The notes under the pieces: generated by a model | Database searches by the model: none | What the model saw: only the letters and a program-made list of their open reading frames with translations | What the model was told of the DNA's origin: nothing | Shown: piece by piece, positions 26,401-36,900 of the stretch | How the letters are laid out: each line of letters opens with the position of its first letter | Position numbering within the stretch: the first letter of the stretch is position 1 | Position numbers and translations under genes: made by a program | NCBI GenBank assembly: GCA_902627055.1 | Contig: CACOHS010000007.1 | Location: 1 to 56,410 of the forward strand | Direction of reading: 5' to 3' | DNA: 56,410 bases | DNA from: an uncultured SAR86 cluster bacterium | GTDB lineage: Bacteria; Pseudomonadota; Gammaproteobacteria; Magnimaribacterales; D2472

Positions 26401-27681
26401 CTATTTGCTTTTGTAGTGGTCGAAAATAGTTTCAATATCTTCAACCATACTAATAGAACTTTTGCCATCTCTATGCCTCAGCTCTATTTCATTATTTTCA
26501 GTATATTGTTTACCAATTATTAAGTTAATTGGAATCCCGATTAACTCAGCATCTTTCATCTTTTTGCCAAAACCATCATTTCTATCATCCAAAATTACTT
26601 CATATCCCATAGATAAAAGTTTGTCGTATAGATTTAAGGCAGTTTTTTTAATCTTGTCATCTTTTTCAAACCCTATTGCAATAATATTTACTTCATAGGG
26701 AGCAATTGCTTCTGGCCAAACAATGCCTTTTTCATCATGATTTTGTTCTATTGCAGCGGCTACAAGTCTTGATATTCCAATTCCATAACAGCCCATATAA
26801 AGGGTTTGTGATTTACCTTCATTATCCAATACGTTAGCATTCATTGCTTCAGCATAAATTTTTCCAAGTTGAAAGATATGCCCAATCTCAATTCCTTTTT
26901 TTACTTCTATGATTCCATTGCCATCTGGCGACGGTTTTCCCTCAAGAGAATTAATATCCTCTCCTTCAGTCAGTAAAAGTTCTGAGTTAATCGCAAATTC
27001 AGATGAGTTACTTACGGCAATTGTGTCTTCGCCATTTTCAGCAAGAACATGAAATTCTTCAGATGCATCTCCACCAATTGAACCAGAATCTGCTTTTACA
27101 ATTTTATATTCAAGGCCCAATCTATCAATTATTTTTTTATAAGTTTCCTTAATTAATAGATATGATTCATTTAAAGAATCTTGATTGATATTGAAGCTAT
27201 AGGAATCTTTCATGAGAAATTCCCTTCCACGCATAACACCATAACGCGGCCTGACTTCATCTCTAAACTTTGTTTGAATTTGATAAAGATTTAACGGCAG
27301 TTCTTTGTAACTTTTAACATTGTTTCTTACTAGGTCAGTTATAACTTCTTCATGAGTTGGTCCAAGGCAAAAGTCTCTATCATGTCTGTCTTGAATACGC
27401 AGAAGCTCTGGACCCATTTTTTTCCATCTTTGAGTTTCCTCCCATAATTCTCTAGGTTGCACCATAGGCATCAAGACTTCTTGAGCGCCAGATGCGTCCA
27501 TCTCCTCTCGAACAATATTTTCAATTTTTTTAAGTACTCTTAAACCAAGGGGAAGCCAATTATATATTCCTGAAGTTACTTTTCTAATCATTCCCGCTCT
27601 CAACATTAGCTGATGACTAATTACTTCAGCGTCTTGAGGAGTATCCTTGAGAGTGGGTAAAAAAATTTTTGACCACAACAT
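26401..27681 (-). CDS. proS: Prolyl-tRNA synthetase lacking the INS editing domain
   Basis: Class II synthetase charging tRNA-Pro. Motif 1 and substrate regions appear in [66 protein letters not shown] and KDSYSFN; the C-terminal part has [32 protein letters not shown] and the anticodon domain. Gammaproteobacterial ProRS is about 570 residues with a roughly 180-residue INS domain between motifs 2 and 3 that edits Ala-tRNA-Pro. Here only about 35 residues join the corresponding segments and the total is 426, as in alphaproteobacterial-type enzymes. Confidence 0.95.
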
Positions 27682-28039: not shown

Positions 28040-29803
28040 ATGCGTTCACATTATTGCGGAAATATTAGTACTTCAGATATTGGAAGCGATATTGAGATTT
28101 CTGGATGGGTTCATAAAAGAAGGGATCATGGCGGCGTTATTTTTTTAGACATTCGTGATTTACATGGAATAGTTCAGACTGTCTTTAATCCTAGCTTAAA
28201 AAAAGTATTTAAAATCGCAGATTCTTGTAGAAGTGAGTATGTAGTAAATATCAAAGGAAAAGTTAGAAAAAGAATTGATGGAGCAGTAAATCCAAAAATG
28301 TTAACTGGTGAGATAGAAATAGAAGCAAGTGATTTATCTATTTTTAGCTCAGCAGTTACTCCTCAGTTTCCATTAGATGATTACCAAGATGTGAATGAGG
28401 ATATAAGACTTAAATATAGATTTTTAGATTTAAGGCGACCTGATGTCAATCAAAGATTGGTACAGAGATCTAAAATTACCTCAGAAATTAGATCAATTTT
28501 AGAAAAAAATAATTTTCATGAAATTGAGACGCCTATTCTTACCAAAGCTACGCCAGAGGGCGCAAGAGATTACCTAGTTCCAAGCAGAGTTCATCCTGGT
28601 GAATTTTTTGCTTTGCCGCAATCTCCACAATTATTTAAACAATTACTTATGATCGGTGGTTTAGATAAATACTATCAAATAGCTAAGTGTTTTAGAGATG
28701 AGGATTTACGAGCTGATAGGCAGCCAGAATTTACTCAGGTTGATATTGAAGCTTCGTTTGTTTCAACTGAGGATATAATTAAAATCGGAGAGGAATTAGT
28801 TATATCTTTACTATCAAAATTTACAGATTACAAAAAGACCTCTGTTCCCAGAATTTCATATGCTGAATCCATAGAAAAGTATGGATGCGATAAACCCGAT
28901 CTCAGGATTCCTTTGCAATTAAAAGATATTGCTGAGCTTGTAAAGGATGAGGAATTTAAAGTGTTTTCTGGCCCTGCAAATGACCCTGCATCCAGAGTGG
29001 TTGCATTGAAAGTACCAGATGCTGCGTCAATGACAAGAAAAAAAATTGATCAATATACTGACTATGTCGGTAAGTTAGGAGCGAAGGGTTTGGCATATAT
29101 CAAAGTAGTTGAGCTTGATTCAGATAACGGACTGCAATCACCTATTCTTAAATTTTTAAAGAAAGAAACAGTTGATTCAATACTTAGTAATTTAGATGCA
29201 AAAAATAATGACATTATTTTTTTTGGGGCTGGAAATGCAAAAATTGTAAATTTATCAATGAGCTCATTAATTAAAAGTATTGGAGAAGATATGAATTTAA
29301 CAACTTCTTCTTGGGCGCCATGTTGGATTGTTGACTTTCCAATGTTTGAAAGAAATAAAGATAATAATTTGACTTCATTGCATCATCCTTTTACCCTGCC
29401 AGCTGTCTCAGTAAGTGAACTAAAGGATGATCCAGATAACGCTTTGGCATGTGCTTATGATTTTGTATTGAATGGTTATGAGCTCGGAGGTGGGTCTTTG
29501 AGAGTTTATGAACCCTCCATGCAAAAAGAGATCTTTAGTATATTGGGAATTTCTAACGAAGAAGCCAATGAGAAATTTGGATTTTTATTATCTGCCTTGT
29601 CCTCAGGATGTCCTCCTCATGGCGGTATCGCATTTGGTTTGGATAGAATAATTATGCTGTTATCTGATACGACTAATATTCGCGACGTTATAGCATTTCC
29701 CAAGACTCAAAGCGCTTCATGTTTGCTAACAGAAGCTCCAAGTGTAGTATCTAATGATCAGCTCGATGAGCTTAATATTTCCTCAACCTCAAAAAAGGAC
29801 TAA
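28040..29803 (+). CDS. aspS: Aspartyl-tRNA synthetase (bacterial type)
   Basis: Class IIb synthetase of 587 residues, the bacterial length. The N-terminal OB fold ([20 protein letters not shown], residues 20-39) binds the anticodon; the catalytic domain has [59 protein letters not shown] (motif 2) and GLDRIIMLL (motif 3), with the bacterial GAD insertion in the middle. Placed between the fmdB-type gene and yebC with spacers of 2-3 nt. Confidence 0.97.
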
Positions 29804-29806
29804 CCA

Positions 29807-30544
29807 ATGGCTGGGCATTCCAAATGGGCTAATATAAAACACCGTAAGGCTAGGCAGGATGCTTCTAGAGGCAAAATTTGGACTAAAGTGATTCGAGAGA
29901 TTACTGTTGCTGCCAAAGGTGGACCAGATCCTGCAGATAATCCTAGACTCAGATTAGCGCTTGATAAGGCAAATGCAGCAAATATGCCCAAAGATACTAT
30001 TAAGCGAGCTATTCAAAAGGGTTCTGGAACTGGAGAAATGGGCGTCCTTGAAGAATTAATTTTTGAGGGTTATGGTCCTAATGGAGTAGCTATTCTTGTT
30101 GAAACAATGACAGATAATCGAAATAGAACAGTTGCTGACGTTCGTCATGCCTTTACAAAATTTGGAGGTAACATGGGAACTGATGGATCAGTTGCATATC
30201 TTTTTAACAAGTTAGGAATAGTTCATGTAGATCTATCTTATGAGGAAGATCAAATTATGGAAATAGCTCTAGATGAAGGTGCAGATGACTTTAGCAAACA
30301 AGATGACTATTATGAAATTATTACTTCTCAGGGAAACTTATCTAAAATTGTTGAGGCTTTTAAGAACAAAAATATCGAACCATTATTGGCTGAAAATACT
30401 ATGCGGGCAGATACTTTAGTTAACCTAGATCAGGAATCCTCAGAAAAGGTTTTAAAGATTATGAATTTTATGGATGACCTTGACGATGTTCAGGAGGTTC
30501 ATACAAATGCAGAGTTTCCAGATGACTTTAGCATTGACGAATAA
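29807..30544 (+). CDS. yebC: YebC/PmpR/TACO1-family protein
   Basis: Typical YebC of 245 residues starting MAGHSKWANIKHRKARQD, with NPRLRLALDKANAANMPKDT and the GYGPNGVAILVE motif, ending in an acidic tail. Members were described as DNA-binding transcription regulators, and more recently some act on translation of difficult proline-rich sequences; the role here is inferred. Sits between aspS and the nuclease gene with 2-3 nt spacers. Confidence 0.95.
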   Translation: MAGHSKWANIKHRKARQDASRGKIWTKVIREITVAAKGGPDPADNPRLRLALDKANAANMPKDTIKRAIQKGSGTGEMGVLEELIFEGYGPNGVAILVETMTDNRNRTVADVRHAFTKFGGNMGTDGSVAYLFNKLGIVHVDLSYEEDQIMEIALDEGADDFSKQDDYYEIITSQGNLSKIVEAFKNKNIEPLLAENTMRADTLVNLDQESSEKVLKIMNFMDDLDDVQEVHTNAEFPDDFSIDE

Positions 30545-30546
30545 TT

Positions 30547-30969
30547 ATGGCCATTAATTCAAGAACCAAAGGCGCTAATTTTGAAAGAGAGATTGGAAAC
30601 CTTCTTGTTGAGCAGCTTGACTTAAAACAGCCAGTCAAAAGAATTTTGGAGCAAACCCGTACAAAAGAATTACCCGATCTAAAGCTAGGTAGGTGGTGTT
30701 TAGAATGTAAAAGATATGGTGATGGAGCTGAGCCATCTCAAGAATGGTGGGATCAAGTTTTATCGGCCACTGGAGAAGGAGAATTTCCTGCTTTAATCTA
30801 TAAATTTAATCGAAGACCAATCAAAGTTAGAGTTCTCGCTGGAACTTTAATACCAGAACTTGATTTTTCTCCCATAACAATTGATCTAATGTGGGATGAT
30901 TTTGTAGAAATTCTTCGTTACCTTTTTCAAGTAGACATTGAGCAACATGAATCCTCGGTTCAAGTGTAA
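30547..30969 (+). CDS. Hjc-like PD-(D/E)xK nuclease, candidate Holliday junction resolvase at the ruvCAB locus
   Basis: A 140-residue basic-to-neutral protein. It begins with RTKGANFEREI, which resembles the KGxxxEReL start of archaeal Hjc resolvases (candidate catalytic Glu13), followed by a PD-x8-ExK core: Asp44 in ELPDL, Glu53 and Lys55 in CLECKRY. An EWWDQV helix follows the core. This combination marks the PD-(D/E)xK nuclease fold; the match to Hjc is from pattern recognition only. In Pseudomonas and others the order is aspS-yebC-ruvC-ruvA-ruvB-ybgC-tolQ; here this single gene fills the whole ruvCAB place. Its start is 2 nt after yebC and it overlaps ybgC by 23 nt. A role as resolvase is inference; another nuclease role is possible. 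Confidence 0.7.
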   Translation: MAINSRTKGANFEREIGNLLVEQLDLKQPVKRILEQTRTKELPDLKLGRWCLECKRYGDGAEPSQEWWDQVLSATGEGEFPALIYKFNRRPIKVRVLAGTLIPELDFSPITIDLMWDDFVEILRYLFQVDIEQHESSVQV

Positions 30970-31363
30970 CGATTTCTTGTGCAGAGTCTTTGTTGAAGAT
31001 ACTGATTTTCAGGGCGTTGTATATTATGCAAACTATCTAAAATATTTAGAAAGAGCAAGGTCTCAATTTTTAATTGAAAATAATCTATCTCAAGTTGATG
31101 CGAAGACTCACGGCAATGAGTTATATGTTGTTAAATCTGTTTCTCTTTCATATTTTCACCCAGCTAAATTAGAGGACGAGCTTATTATCAAAACTGAAAT
31201 AGAGCTAACTAGCAAAGCAAGAACAAAATTTTTTCAATCTGTTTTAAACAAAAAAAATGATACACTCATTTGCGAGGGGGTTGTTGAGGTATGCTATATA
31301 GATAATAACTCAGGTAGGCCTATAGTATTCCCCGATCGTTTATTAAACTTGTTTAAAAATTAG
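30947..31363 (+). CDS. ybgC: Acyl-CoA thioesterase YbgC
   Basis: Hot-dog fold thioesterase of about 138 residues. The 4HBT signature VEDTDFQGVVYYANYLKYLERAR (read in two parts: VEDTDFQG, then VVYYANYLKYLERAR) includes the catalytic Asp. The ATG at 30947 is preferred over the TTG at 30938. The start lies inside the preceding nuclease gene. ybgC is the usual first gene of the tol-pal cluster; tolQ follows after 1 nt. Confidence 0.93.
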   Translation: MNPRFKCNDFLCRVFVEDTDFQGVVYYANYLKYLERARSQFLIENNLSQVDAKTHGNELYVVKSVSLSYFHPAKLEDELIIKTEIELTSKARTKFFQSVLNKKNDTLICEGVVEVCYIDNNSGRPIVFPDRLLNLFKN

Positions 31364-31364
31364 G

Positions 31365-32045
31365 ATGGATGATTTTTCAATAATAGAATTATTTCTTCAA
31401 GCCAGTTTGGTTGTTCAAGCTGTAATGGTTTTATTGCTTGTTGTTTCAATTATTTCTTGGATTGTTATTTTTGAAAGATACTTTAATTTAAATCGCATCA
31501 AAGAAGCCAATAAGATATTTGAGGAACAGTTTTGGTCTGGAAAAGACCTTCATGAAATTCATCAAAGCATTGAAGAGCTCTCAAATGAAGAATTAATAGG
31601 TTCTTTAAGAGTTTTTAAGAGTGGGTTTGATGAATTTTTAAGACTGAGTGATGGTAAAAAAATTACAATAGAAGATTTAGAAAGTGTTAATAGAGCAATC
31701 AGAGTTTCTTTAGCGAGAGAAGAGGAGTCACTAATGTATCATCTTCCTTTTTTAGCTAACGCTGGTTCAGTCAGTCCATATGTTGGATTATTTGGAACAG
31801 TTTGGGGAATTATTAATTCATTTCAGGGTCTTTCAGATGCTACTCAAGCAACCATAAACGCAGTCGCTCCAGGAATTTCAGAAGCACTAGTTGCAACTGC
31901 TCTTGGATTATTTGCAGCAATTCCAGCAGTGGTTGCTTACAATAGATTTGCATCTGAATCAGATACTCAACTTCAACAATCATCTATATTTGGTGAGGAG
32001 TTAGCAAGTATTCTCTACAGACAAACCGTTAAAGCAAAACTTTGA
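31365..32045 (+). CDS. tolQ: Tol-Pal system protein TolQ
   Basis: Inner-membrane proton-channel subunit of the Tol system. It has a first membrane helix at about residues 16-36, a cytoplasmic stretch, and two further helices in the C-terminal half with SPYVGLFGTVWGIINSFQGL and ALVATALGLFAAIPAVVAYN, the conserved TolQ/ExbB/MotA motifs. Length 226 is standard. It overlaps tolR by 4 nt. The tolQRAB-pal-cpoB order identifies it as TolQ rather than ExbB. Confidence 0.96.
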   Translation: MDDFSIIELFLQASLVVQAVMVLLLVVSIISWIVIFERYFNLNRIKEANKIFEEQFWSGKDLHEIHQSIEELSNEELIGSLRVFKSGFDEFLRLSDGKKITIEDLESVNRAIRVSLAREEESLMYHLPFLANAGSVSPYVGLFGTVWGIINSFQGLSDATQATINAVAPGISEALVATALGLFAAIPAVVAYNRFASESDTQLQQSSIFGEELASILYRQTVKAKL

Positions 32046-35540: not shown

Positions 35541-35616
35541 GGGTCGCTAGCTCAGCTGGTAGAGCAGTTCGCTTTTAACGAATTGGTCACAGGTTCGAAT
35601 CCTGTGCGACCCACCA
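35541..35616 (+). tRNA. tRNA-Lys (anticodon TTT)
   Basis: A 76-nt cloverleaf: acceptor GGGTCGC/GCGACCC, D arm GCTC-AGCTGGTA-GAGC, anticodon stem GTTCG/CGAAT with loop CTTTTAA (anticodon TTT, Lys), variable TGGTC, T arm ACAGG-TTCGAAT-CCTGT, discriminator A, and an encoded CCA end. It lies 26 nt after cpoB. A single tRNA-Lys follows the tol-pal cluster here; E. coli has a Lys/Val tRNA cluster at the same spot. Confidence 0.98.
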
Positions 35617-35646: not shown

Positions 35647-36900
35647 ATGAGCTCAATCAAAATATTTTTCGAAAGAGTCTCGTTATCTTTTACAAAAAAT
35701 TCTGCTATTGCAGGATTTTTTTTCTTCTTAGTTTTATGTTCTTGGTATATCTTGCGACCTGTTAGAAATGAAATGGCAGTTCAAAACTCTGACATTCTTC
35801 CATACTTGTTGGGTTTAGGGGCATTAGTGATGTTGCTTTTAAATCCAATTTATTCATGGCTTGCTTCTCGTAAAAATCTTAAGAGCGTACTTATAGGATG
35901 CTACTCGTTTTTTATCATTAATTTATTTCTATTTATCATTTTATGGGAGTTTTTTGGCCTTTCAGGAGCTATTTGGCTAAGTAGAATTTTTTATGTTTGG
36001 TGTAATGTATATTCTTTTTTTGTAGTCTCAATTTTTTGGGTTGTAATCATTAATTTATTTAGAGGTGATGGGGCAACAAATGTTTTTGGAGTTATTGCAG
36101 CAGGCGGATCAATAGGAGCATTTTTAGGCTCAGAAATTTCAAAGCAATTAGCAGCAACATTTAATGAATCGGGAATCATTTTTTTTACATTAATAGCGAT
36201 ATTTTTTCTCATATCAGCCTTGATAACTGGATTAATTTTATTAAATCGGCTTTCATCTGTAGAGGGTATTAATGAAGCAGCTGGAGGCAATAGTTTTGAC
36301 GGTTTTAAAAACTTGATTTCCTCTGCCCAAATTAGATCAATTGGTCTGTATATGTATTTGTGGACAGCAATGATGACAATTCATTGGATAACATCAATTC
36401 AAATTATTAATTCTTGGTCGTCAGACGGAGGAGATAGAATAATTTTTTTTAGTAATATTGAGCAAACGGTAACTTTACTTACGCTTATTACGCAATTTTT
36501 TCTTACCTCTACAATTATAAGGCTTGCAACGCCAAGAATCATTTTAATGTTTTATGGGGTAATTTTTATTGGAGCCTTCGCTGGTTATTTCTTGTATCCC
36601 ACGATTGAATATGTCTTTGGTATAACTATTATTTTACGAATTTTTGAATATGGAATAAATAAACCAACAAGAGAAGTCGTATTTAGTTACTTAAAGAAAA
36701 TGGATCGTTACAAATCCTCGGTTATGTTTGATACTTTTTTAGTAAGAATGGGCGACTTTTCTGGCAGTGGTTTCATATCTATATTCTCTAAAACTTTTGG
36801 AATTACATTTTCTTACATACCATTAATAGCGATTCCTTTTGCAGCAATTCTTGCATTCTTGGGATTAAAAATTGCTCCAAAGGATAAGATACCCTCTTAA
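35647..36900 (+). CDS. NTP/NDP exchange transporter-like MFS protein
   Basis: A 417-residue membrane protein with about eleven to twelve hydrophobic segments. The start region FFFLVLCSWYILRPVRNEM and SIFWVVIINLF, followed by VFGVIAAGGSIGAFLGSEI, look like the bacterial ATP/ADP-antiporter (TLC/NTT) branch of the MFS, which is found in free-living bacteria as well as in intracellular ones. The substrate is not known; nucleotide exchange is only one possibility. Its stop TAA overlaps the convergent bepA stop at TTAA. Confidence 0.7.
   Translation: MSSIKIFFERVSLSFTKNSAIAGFFFFLVLCSWYILRPVRNEMAVQNSDILPYLLGLGALVMLLLNPIYSWLASRKNLKSVLIGCYSFFIINLFLFIILWEFFGLSGAIWLSRIFYVWCNVYSFFVVSIFWVVIINLFRGDGATNVFGVIAAGGSIGAFLGSEISKQLAATFNESGIIFFTLIAIFFLISALITGLILLNRLSSVEGINEAAGGNSFDGFKNLISSAQIRSIGLYMYLWTAMMTIHWITSIQIINSWSSDGGDRIIFFSNIEQTVTLLTLITQFFLTSTIIRLATPRIILMFYGVIFIGAFAGYFLYPTIEYVFGITIILRIFEYGINKPTREVVFSYLKKMDRYKSSVMFDTFLVRMGDFSGSGFISIFSKTFGITFSYIPLIAIPFAAILAFLGLKIAPKDKIPS

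Follow-up and report, generated by a model that had tools for sequence, protein, structure and literature searches.

A phage-type PD-(D/E)xK nuclease at the ruvCAB position in SAR86 bacteria: a proposed Holliday-junction resolvase

RuvAB branch migration is the textbook route for the processing of Holliday junctions. In the DNA analyzed here, a stretch of 56,410 nucleotides from an uncultured SAR86 cluster bacterium (contig CACOHS010000007.1; hereafter the window), a single gene stands where relatives carry ruvC, ruvA and ruvB. This gene, called X (30547..30969, + strand), encodes a 140-residue PD-(D/E)xK nuclease. The order aspS-yebC-X-ybgC-tolQ-tolR-tolA-tolB-pal-cpoB-tRNA-Lys, described by a sequence-only reading of the same DNA, was found in the window as given; the names of the protein-coding genes around X are those we presumed from their translations.

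The nuclease gene between yebC and ybgC

The ORF of X was intact, with an ATG start 2 nt past the yebC stop (30544), and the ybgC ATG (30947) lay inside the final 23 nt of X, forming a tight, overlapping operon. Upstream were aspS (28040..29803, +) and yebC (29807..30544, +), the latter placed as in the ruvCAB operon of relatives; downstream, ybgC (30947..31363, +) was followed by tolQ (31365..32045, +), and the tRNA-Lys gene (35541-35616) lay past cpoB. Behind that tRNA gene, an ORF for a 417-residue, membrane-protein-like product (35647-36900, +) had no Pfam match up to E 0.001. On the other strand (26401-27681, -), a 426-residue protein that we take to be a prolyl-tRNA synthetase had Pfam matches to the catalytic and the anticodon domain; the editing insertion domain of the long bacterial form was not found in it.

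The distribution of X was surveyed in 100 SAR86 genomes (the window's own, 25 from the same genus, 34 more from the same family and 40 more from the same order), of which 40 were at least 90% complete. X was present in 92 of these genomes, covering 20 of 20 genera and four families, and in 38 of the 40 more complete ones. Two of the eight genomes without X (G004, G013, G019, G024, G045, G046, G090 and G092) were at least 90% complete; X in G042 was only a fragment, and the match in G057 contained a stop. Chromosomal SAR86 loci were read in 68 genomes, that of the window among them, and X stood directly behind yebC at each of the 69. Comparator queries detected ybgC and tolQ behind X at 61 of these loci, tolQ only at 7 and neither at 1, and no ruv gene was found at any of the 69. 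All eight loci at which ybgC was undetected (L046, L049, L051, L063, L065, L069, L073 and L074) belong to family f4.

For comparison, 20 RuvC-bearing gammaproteobacterial loci were read, a non-random set mostly picked for long contigs, one of which supplied the queries. In this set yebC lay beside ruvC at 19 loci, ruvC and ruvA were present at all 20 and ruvB at 19; ybgC and/or tolQ followed at 16, and the full order yebC-ruvC-ruvA-ruvB-ybgC-tolQ was found at 11. Set against these, the 69 SAR86 loci bore out the earlier claim that X occupies the slot of ruvC-ruvA-ruvB.

Among five genes of the region compared across 10 same-genus loci, X had the lowest median dN (0.052), followed by tolQ (0.074), yebC (0.085), part of aspS (0.108) and ybgC (0.166). 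At 0.037, the dN/dS of X was close to the 0.040 of yebC, synonymous sites being almost saturated. Because X recurs in 92 of 100 relatives, keeps a fixed place behind yebC and shows the lowest median dN of the five, it is more than a chance ORF.

The motifs KGANFEREI and PD-x8-ExK, noted earlier from the letters alone, are present in the 140-residue protein (P43-D44-x8-E53-x-K55). On the + strand, motif I (KGANFERE) contains E13 (codon 30583..30585), the PD motif contains D44 (30676..30678), and E53-C54-K55 form ExK (30703..30711); E13 aligned to a Glu of the related f42 protein described below, and D44 and the ExK motif also aligned with that protein. None of the 103 distinct SAR86 sequences departed from E13, D44, E53 and K55, nor did any of 59 others, two of which came from G108; in the viral rows and the pattern-fetched SAR86 rows, for which the patterns span N4-E13 and Q36-D44, only E53, K55, W68 and Q70 are free of the fetching bias, and the SAR86 loci of the 100-genome survey were found by similarity, not by pattern. 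One set of SAR86 relatives comprised 80 loci kept out of 181 confirmed. Q36 (30652..30654, +), beside position 35, was likewise Gln throughout the 103 distinct SAR86 sequences, and position 35 itself was mostly Glu (E 95, N 3, S 3, T 1, V 1). A WWxQV motif (W67-V71; 30745..30759, +) is typical of the X family and missing from the f42 type.

Absence of RuvABC in SAR86 and a second replacement in family f42

When ruvC, ruvA and ruvB were sought elsewhere in the window's genome and in the 100 SAR86 genomes, none was found at the level of a true protein. The RuvC model matched neither the window's genome (0/1) nor any of the 100, and RuvA_N gave no match above its cut-off in the 100; both counts were also zero among the 40 genomes at least 90% complete, including the single-contig genomes G026, G032, G061, G063, G065 and G068. 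The RusA model matched none of the 100 genomes either. A lone sub-threshold RuvA_N match (G074, 19.8 bits) was rejected as RuvA, as it sits in an unrelated ORF, presumably for an acyltransferase-like protein. Weak RuvB_N matches occurred in 99 genomes, 92 of them formally over the cut-off of 27, with a best score of 31.0 bits per stretch, or 34.8 bits with neighbors in frame; the true comparator proteins scored 266.9 (RuvB), 92.5 (RuvA_N) and 214.7 bits (RuvC). These matches were rejected as RuvB by score, and the two that were opened looked otherwise, being presumably a ClpX-like (L031) and a DnaX-like (L034) protein, recognized from sequence. With X in 92 of 100 relatives, RuvC and RuvA_N in none and RuvB_N only at weak scores, the swap spans the whole SAR86 order.

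Across the class, 185 genomes were sampled, 182 from outside SAR86 and three from within; RuvC was found in 174, all non-SAR86. The loss in SAR86 is therefore unusual, as the sequence-only reading had expected of such a replacement in Gammaproteobacteria. Excerpts of a study of a closed SAR86 isolate genome (PMC11582366) report that 28 of 280 gammaproteobacterial marker genes, several of them in recombination and repair, were missing, and that 27 of those 28 were also missing from 732 environmental genomes. To go by those excerpts, the absence of ruvABC may already be on record among the missing markers (PMC11582366); the main text of that study names none of ruv, Holliday or RecG.

Eight non-SAR86 genomes were without RuvC. 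In one of these (G137), a 104-residue protein encoded between yebC and ybgC-tolQ gave a weak match to the SAR86 profile (23.1 bits). The order of G137 was represented by 20 genomes, 12 of family f42 and 8 of the sister families f166 and f168. The nuclease was found in 9 of the 12 f42 genomes and RuvC in none, and all 8 sister-family genomes had RuvC and none the nuclease (Fisher p 0.0014, for a split that was probably one event and so is not independent replication). At the f42 loci, yebC lay directly before the nuclease in 9 of 9 and ybgC and tolQ behind it in 8 of 9; the one sister-family locus with ORFs listed read yebC-ruvC-ruvA. A related nuclease has replaced the ruv genes at the same slot in this second family.

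The other seven RuvC-less genomes gave no match to profile A1, which was built from SAR86 rows and the diverged copy L042 only, with no f42 row. Five of the seven had no yebC match, yebC of G171 had different neighbors and no such nuclease among them, and the yebC neighborhood of G228 ended at a contig edge, so these genomes do not establish the swap as what ordinarily follows when RuvC is lost. Genomes G102, G103, G122, G153 and G192, at 93-99% completeness, had neither RuvC nor YebC matches.

Family of the nuclease and its phage relatives

A Pfam search of X returned a single family, PDDEXK_15 (PF24608; 28.3 bits, cut-off 27), and a PHROGs search placed it in phrog_244, "RusA-like Holliday junction resolvase" (7.6e-11), which proteins from other SAR86 families matched at 1.8e-13 and 2.1e-14. 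On PDDEXK_15, four phage-type relatives and the f42 protein scored 34-51.6 bits, the f42 protein itself reaching 37.2 bits (PHROG 244, 1.2e-14). "RusA-like" is a label of the PHROG, and X matched neither the RusA (PF05866) nor the RuvC (PF02075) Pfam model. Up to E 5, X had no match to Pfam Hjc (PF01870) or to any NCBIfam model, and it fell outside RecU, PF24608 being its only Pfam match; as a single sequence it had no match in PDB.

Profiles of the family gave a graded picture. Profile A3 (54 rows, among them one f42 row and one distant phage row, G200) had two PDB matches, the better being Hje 1ob8 (E 0.64), with KGxxFER/GKNAERE, PD and ECK in register and E13 of X aligned to Hje E10. With profile A5 (52 rows, without the f42 and G200 rows) and with profile A1, every PDB match up to E 10 was to an unrelated chain and none to a Holliday-junction resolvase. 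With hhalign, one Hje sequence was matched at 0.9% (A1) and 19.9% (A5), and the f42 family (A4) at 95.7% (A1) and 95.9% (A5), neither of which holds an f42 row, and at 99.3% by A3, which itself holds one. The f42 protein scored 19.9 bits on Hjc (PF01870), below the cut-off of 21.1. Its single sequence had six PDB matches up to E 10, with the phage Holliday-junction resolvase 7bgs at the top (8.6e-5), followed by four Hjc/Hje chains and the hypothetical protein ST1444; a nine-row f42 profile matched 7bgs (7.9e-6) and, weakly, the same five and two RAD23 chains. As the Hje match of the X family vanishes once the f42 and G200 rows are left out, the link between X and Hjc is, on these profiles, an indirect one that runs via the f42 protein.

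X shows the E, D, E, K catalytic pattern of Hjc/Hje (E13, D44, E53 and K55), a pattern common to many PD-(D/E)xK enzymes; in the A3 match these four stood in register with E10, D39, E52 and K54 of Hje, which we take to be its catalytic residues. The Hjc-type serine, presumably an active-site residue, is not conserved in X, where the aligned position 35 is mostly Glu; the f42 protein has Ser34. Archaeal Hjc was rejected as a label for X, given the missing PF01870 match, the missing PDB match without the f42 and G200 rows, and the serine. Of the earlier description of X as Hjc-like, the relation to solved Holliday-junction resolvases stands by way of f42, and the direct Hjc match falls away in Pfam, A1 and A5. 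The profile comparison with resolvases that had been proposed ended the same way, with X in PDDEXK_15 and in PHROG 244 with its resolvase label, an indirect tie, and no direct match to Hjc. The description should read "distant cousin of Hjc, phage type", and we keep Hjc as the nearest mechanism.

Relatives of X were found in 10 phage records, at 30-39% identity, and in at least 536 IMG/VR stretches. Phages with PDDEXK_15/PHROG 244 nucleases included C72C1, Roseobacter phages CRP-406, CRP-811, CRP-821 and CRP-822, Providencia phages PSTCR4 and PSTCR7, and EBPR podovirus 1; their proteins share R-x-KG, E, PD and ExK with X, and most of them WWxQV. The copies in C72C1, PSTCR4, CRP-811 and CRP-821 have recombination or replication genes a few kilobases away at most, whereas the SAR86 X is a fixed chromosomal gene of a housekeeping operon. 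In Roseobacter phages, one slot held an X-type nuclease in CRP-811 and CRP-821 and an f42-type nuclease in CRP-823 and CRP-831. Compared with CRP-811, the small ORF before the nuclease was 98% (CRP-831), 51% (CRP-823) and 100% (CRP-821) identical, the PD-(D/E)xK exonuclease gene after it 98.5%, 98.9% and 78%, respectively, and across the three phages SSB was 96-97% and the RepA helicase 86-90% identical. CRP-821 carried a methylase gene between the small ORF and the nuclease, and CRP-821, CRP-823 and CRP-831 each had an additional small gene behind the nuclease. That related phage genomes swap these two diverged types at a single position argues that X-type and f42-type nucleases do the same work.

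A tree of 51 rows, thinned to 21 of 152 SAR86 copies and 25 of 80 viral copies, was rooted by assumption on two G108 rows (L100 and L102), which were grouped as phage; an ORF near L100 is, we presume, SSB-like. The position of the f42 row, whose branch was very long (4.91), was disregarded. SAR86 and three viral rows formed a clade (100/99) among phage rows, with the next branch at 85/76, or 68/70 once two long rows were left out. A single SAR86 clade without viral rows was rejected (p-AU 0.011, in a test chosen after the first tree), so some phages seem to carry SAR86-type copies. With bootstrap values of 68-85% at the next branches and an assumed root, a phage origin of the SAR86 X is likely, not proven; a phage donor in the SAR86 ancestor is the simplest reading, its exact attachment being only moderately supported.

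The three viral rows inside the SAR86 clade were L183, L184 and L187. Copies of X were borne by the IMG/VR viral contigs L183/L287-L289 and L184-L187, which are possibly SAR86 phages with a host-type nuclease. A segment of contig C4 of genome G037 (L042, 1488-6084) is phage-like and encodes a second, diverged PDDEXK_15 protein, with two neighboring ORFs that had no Pfam match. This protein was rejected as a second SAR86 resolvase, as it lies beside a Toprim/AAA protein in the phage-like segment and groups with viral rows.

Proposed function and comparison with known systems

We consider it about 78% probable that X is a Holliday-junction resolvase that acts without RuvAB, in the slot that ruvC, ruvA and ruvB vacated in SAR86, and it probably does the cutting step alone. 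A structure-specific endonuclease of a phage PD-(D/E)xK family would have taken over junction resolution in the SAR86 ancestor. If X works as Hjc-type enzymes do, it would be dimeric and would attach to the four-way junctions that RecA creates. With metal ions and the residues E13, D44, E53 and K55, it would then cut two strands on opposite sides of the junction, and the nicked duplexes would be left for ligase; X may be the sole resolvase of these cells. Branch migration would be left to RecG in most SAR86, with no dedicated motor found in five genera.

RecG (TIGR00643) scored at least 600 bits in 73 of the 100 SAR86 genomes, including the window's own (686 bits). Five genera of the window's family (g2, g4, g5, g6 and g7) had no RecG-level match in any of their 21 genomes, 15 of which were at least 90% complete. 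The best RecG-model scores in these 21 were at most about 370 bits, mostly in frames of about 1,000-1,100 residues, which were taken by their length to be Mfd. The genomes in question (G026, G028-G031, G035-G038, G042-G045, G048-G050, G053-G055, G058 and G059) seem to be without both RuvAB and RecG. In the other six genomes below the RecG level (G011, G018, G020, G057, G091 and G094), RecG was partial or not found, in some at contig ends.

It seems unlikely that X has another job, such as end processing, fork trimming or DNA degradation, having settled in a freed slot while junctions are dealt with by RecG reversal, topoisomerases or YqgF. X itself has no direct match to solved Holliday-junction resolvases (A1, A5), the Hjc-type serine is not conserved, and the phage copies lie near exonuclease, SSB and helicase genes, so that other recombination roles are possible. 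However, related nucleases fill the same slot in two lineages, one of them matching phage and archaeal Holliday-junction resolvases, both types interchange in one phage slot, and in the five genera without RecG a reversal route would lack its helicase.

Alternatively, ruvABC could be present and have been missed through draft incompleteness or strong divergence. The window's genome (1.33 Mb in 36 contigs) is 88.65% complete, and the data are mostly single-cell or metagenome assemblies; yet RuvC and RuvA_N were absent from 40 relatives of at least 90% completeness, single-contig genomes among them, the slot itself was sequenced at 69 loci and held no ruv gene, the RuvC model detected 174 of 182 other class members, and the excerpted report on the closed isolate describes missing recombination and repair markers (PMC11582366). 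We regard an oversight of this kind as very improbable. Just as little credit is due to the idea of X as a selfish or defense nuclease, a phage remnant with no housekeeping role, for which its phage family and the three IMG/VR rows inside the SAR86 clade could be cited. Such an element would hardly be expected to hold one fixed place in four families of the order, to show a dN below those of yebC, tolQ, aspS and ybgC, and to keep the same catalytic residues in every one of 103 distinct sequences.

Junction resolution by X remains our preferred reading, and we lean, with clearly less assurance, toward a broader statement: that the SAR86 order, made up of very abundant, free-living marine bacteria, and separately a second gammaproteobacterial family end homologous recombination with a phage-derived nuclease and no RuvABC, five genera doing so without RecG and the SAR86 enzyme without the Hjc-type serine. 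The nuclease family was already known; what is new is the order-wide, in-place replacement of three Ruv proteins, repeated in f42 and in part accompanied by the absence of RecG. By title and the start of the abstract, we found no literature on a resolvase substitute in SAR86 in a limited collection. SAR86 is described, in the excerpts cited above, as belonging to the most abundant bacterial groups in surface ocean waters (PMC11582366). If the proposal is true, SAR86 would be a natural experiment in which a single small phage-type nuclease suffices, in very abundant ocean bacteria. That the swap recurs in f42, and that related phages exchange the two types, points to phages as a source of off-the-shelf substitutes for a central repair apparatus. 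The proposal would also give a function to the PDDEXK_15/PHROG 244 nucleases carried by many marine phages, and in SAR86 one could test cleanly whether cells can do without branch migration.

Several known systems resemble this arrangement in part. RusA, a phage-borne resolvase of lambdoid prophages (PF05866), can act without RuvAB and belongs to another Pfam family than X. Hjc and Hje (1ob8, 1hh1, 1gef) are like X in size class and in the E / PD / ExK pattern; X differs from them by its extra WWxQV and YKF motifs and by the mostly Glu position 35, where Hjc has Ser. The Holliday-junction resolvase of phage 15-6 (7bgs, 7bnx) and those of Geobacillus and Parageobacillus phages were the best matches of the f42 protein; the SAR86 X does not match 7bgs itself and is a distant cousin via f42. 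A protein of phage NIIg3.2 was assigned to 7BGS by HHpred, according to an excerpt of the report on it (PMC10530707). Excerpts of a survey of 117 species state that only ten of the studied genomes had neither RuvC nor RecU, and name prophage resolvases as possible substitutes (PMC1193525). The RecU of Firmicutes and Mollicutes is, like X, a non-RuvC nuclease that replaces RuvC; by the same excerpts, recU adjoins ruvAB in only two genomes, and RuvAB is more widespread (PMC1193525). SAR86 departs from the RecU case in having lost RuvA and RuvB as well as RuvC, with the replacement nuclease encoded at the former ruv position.
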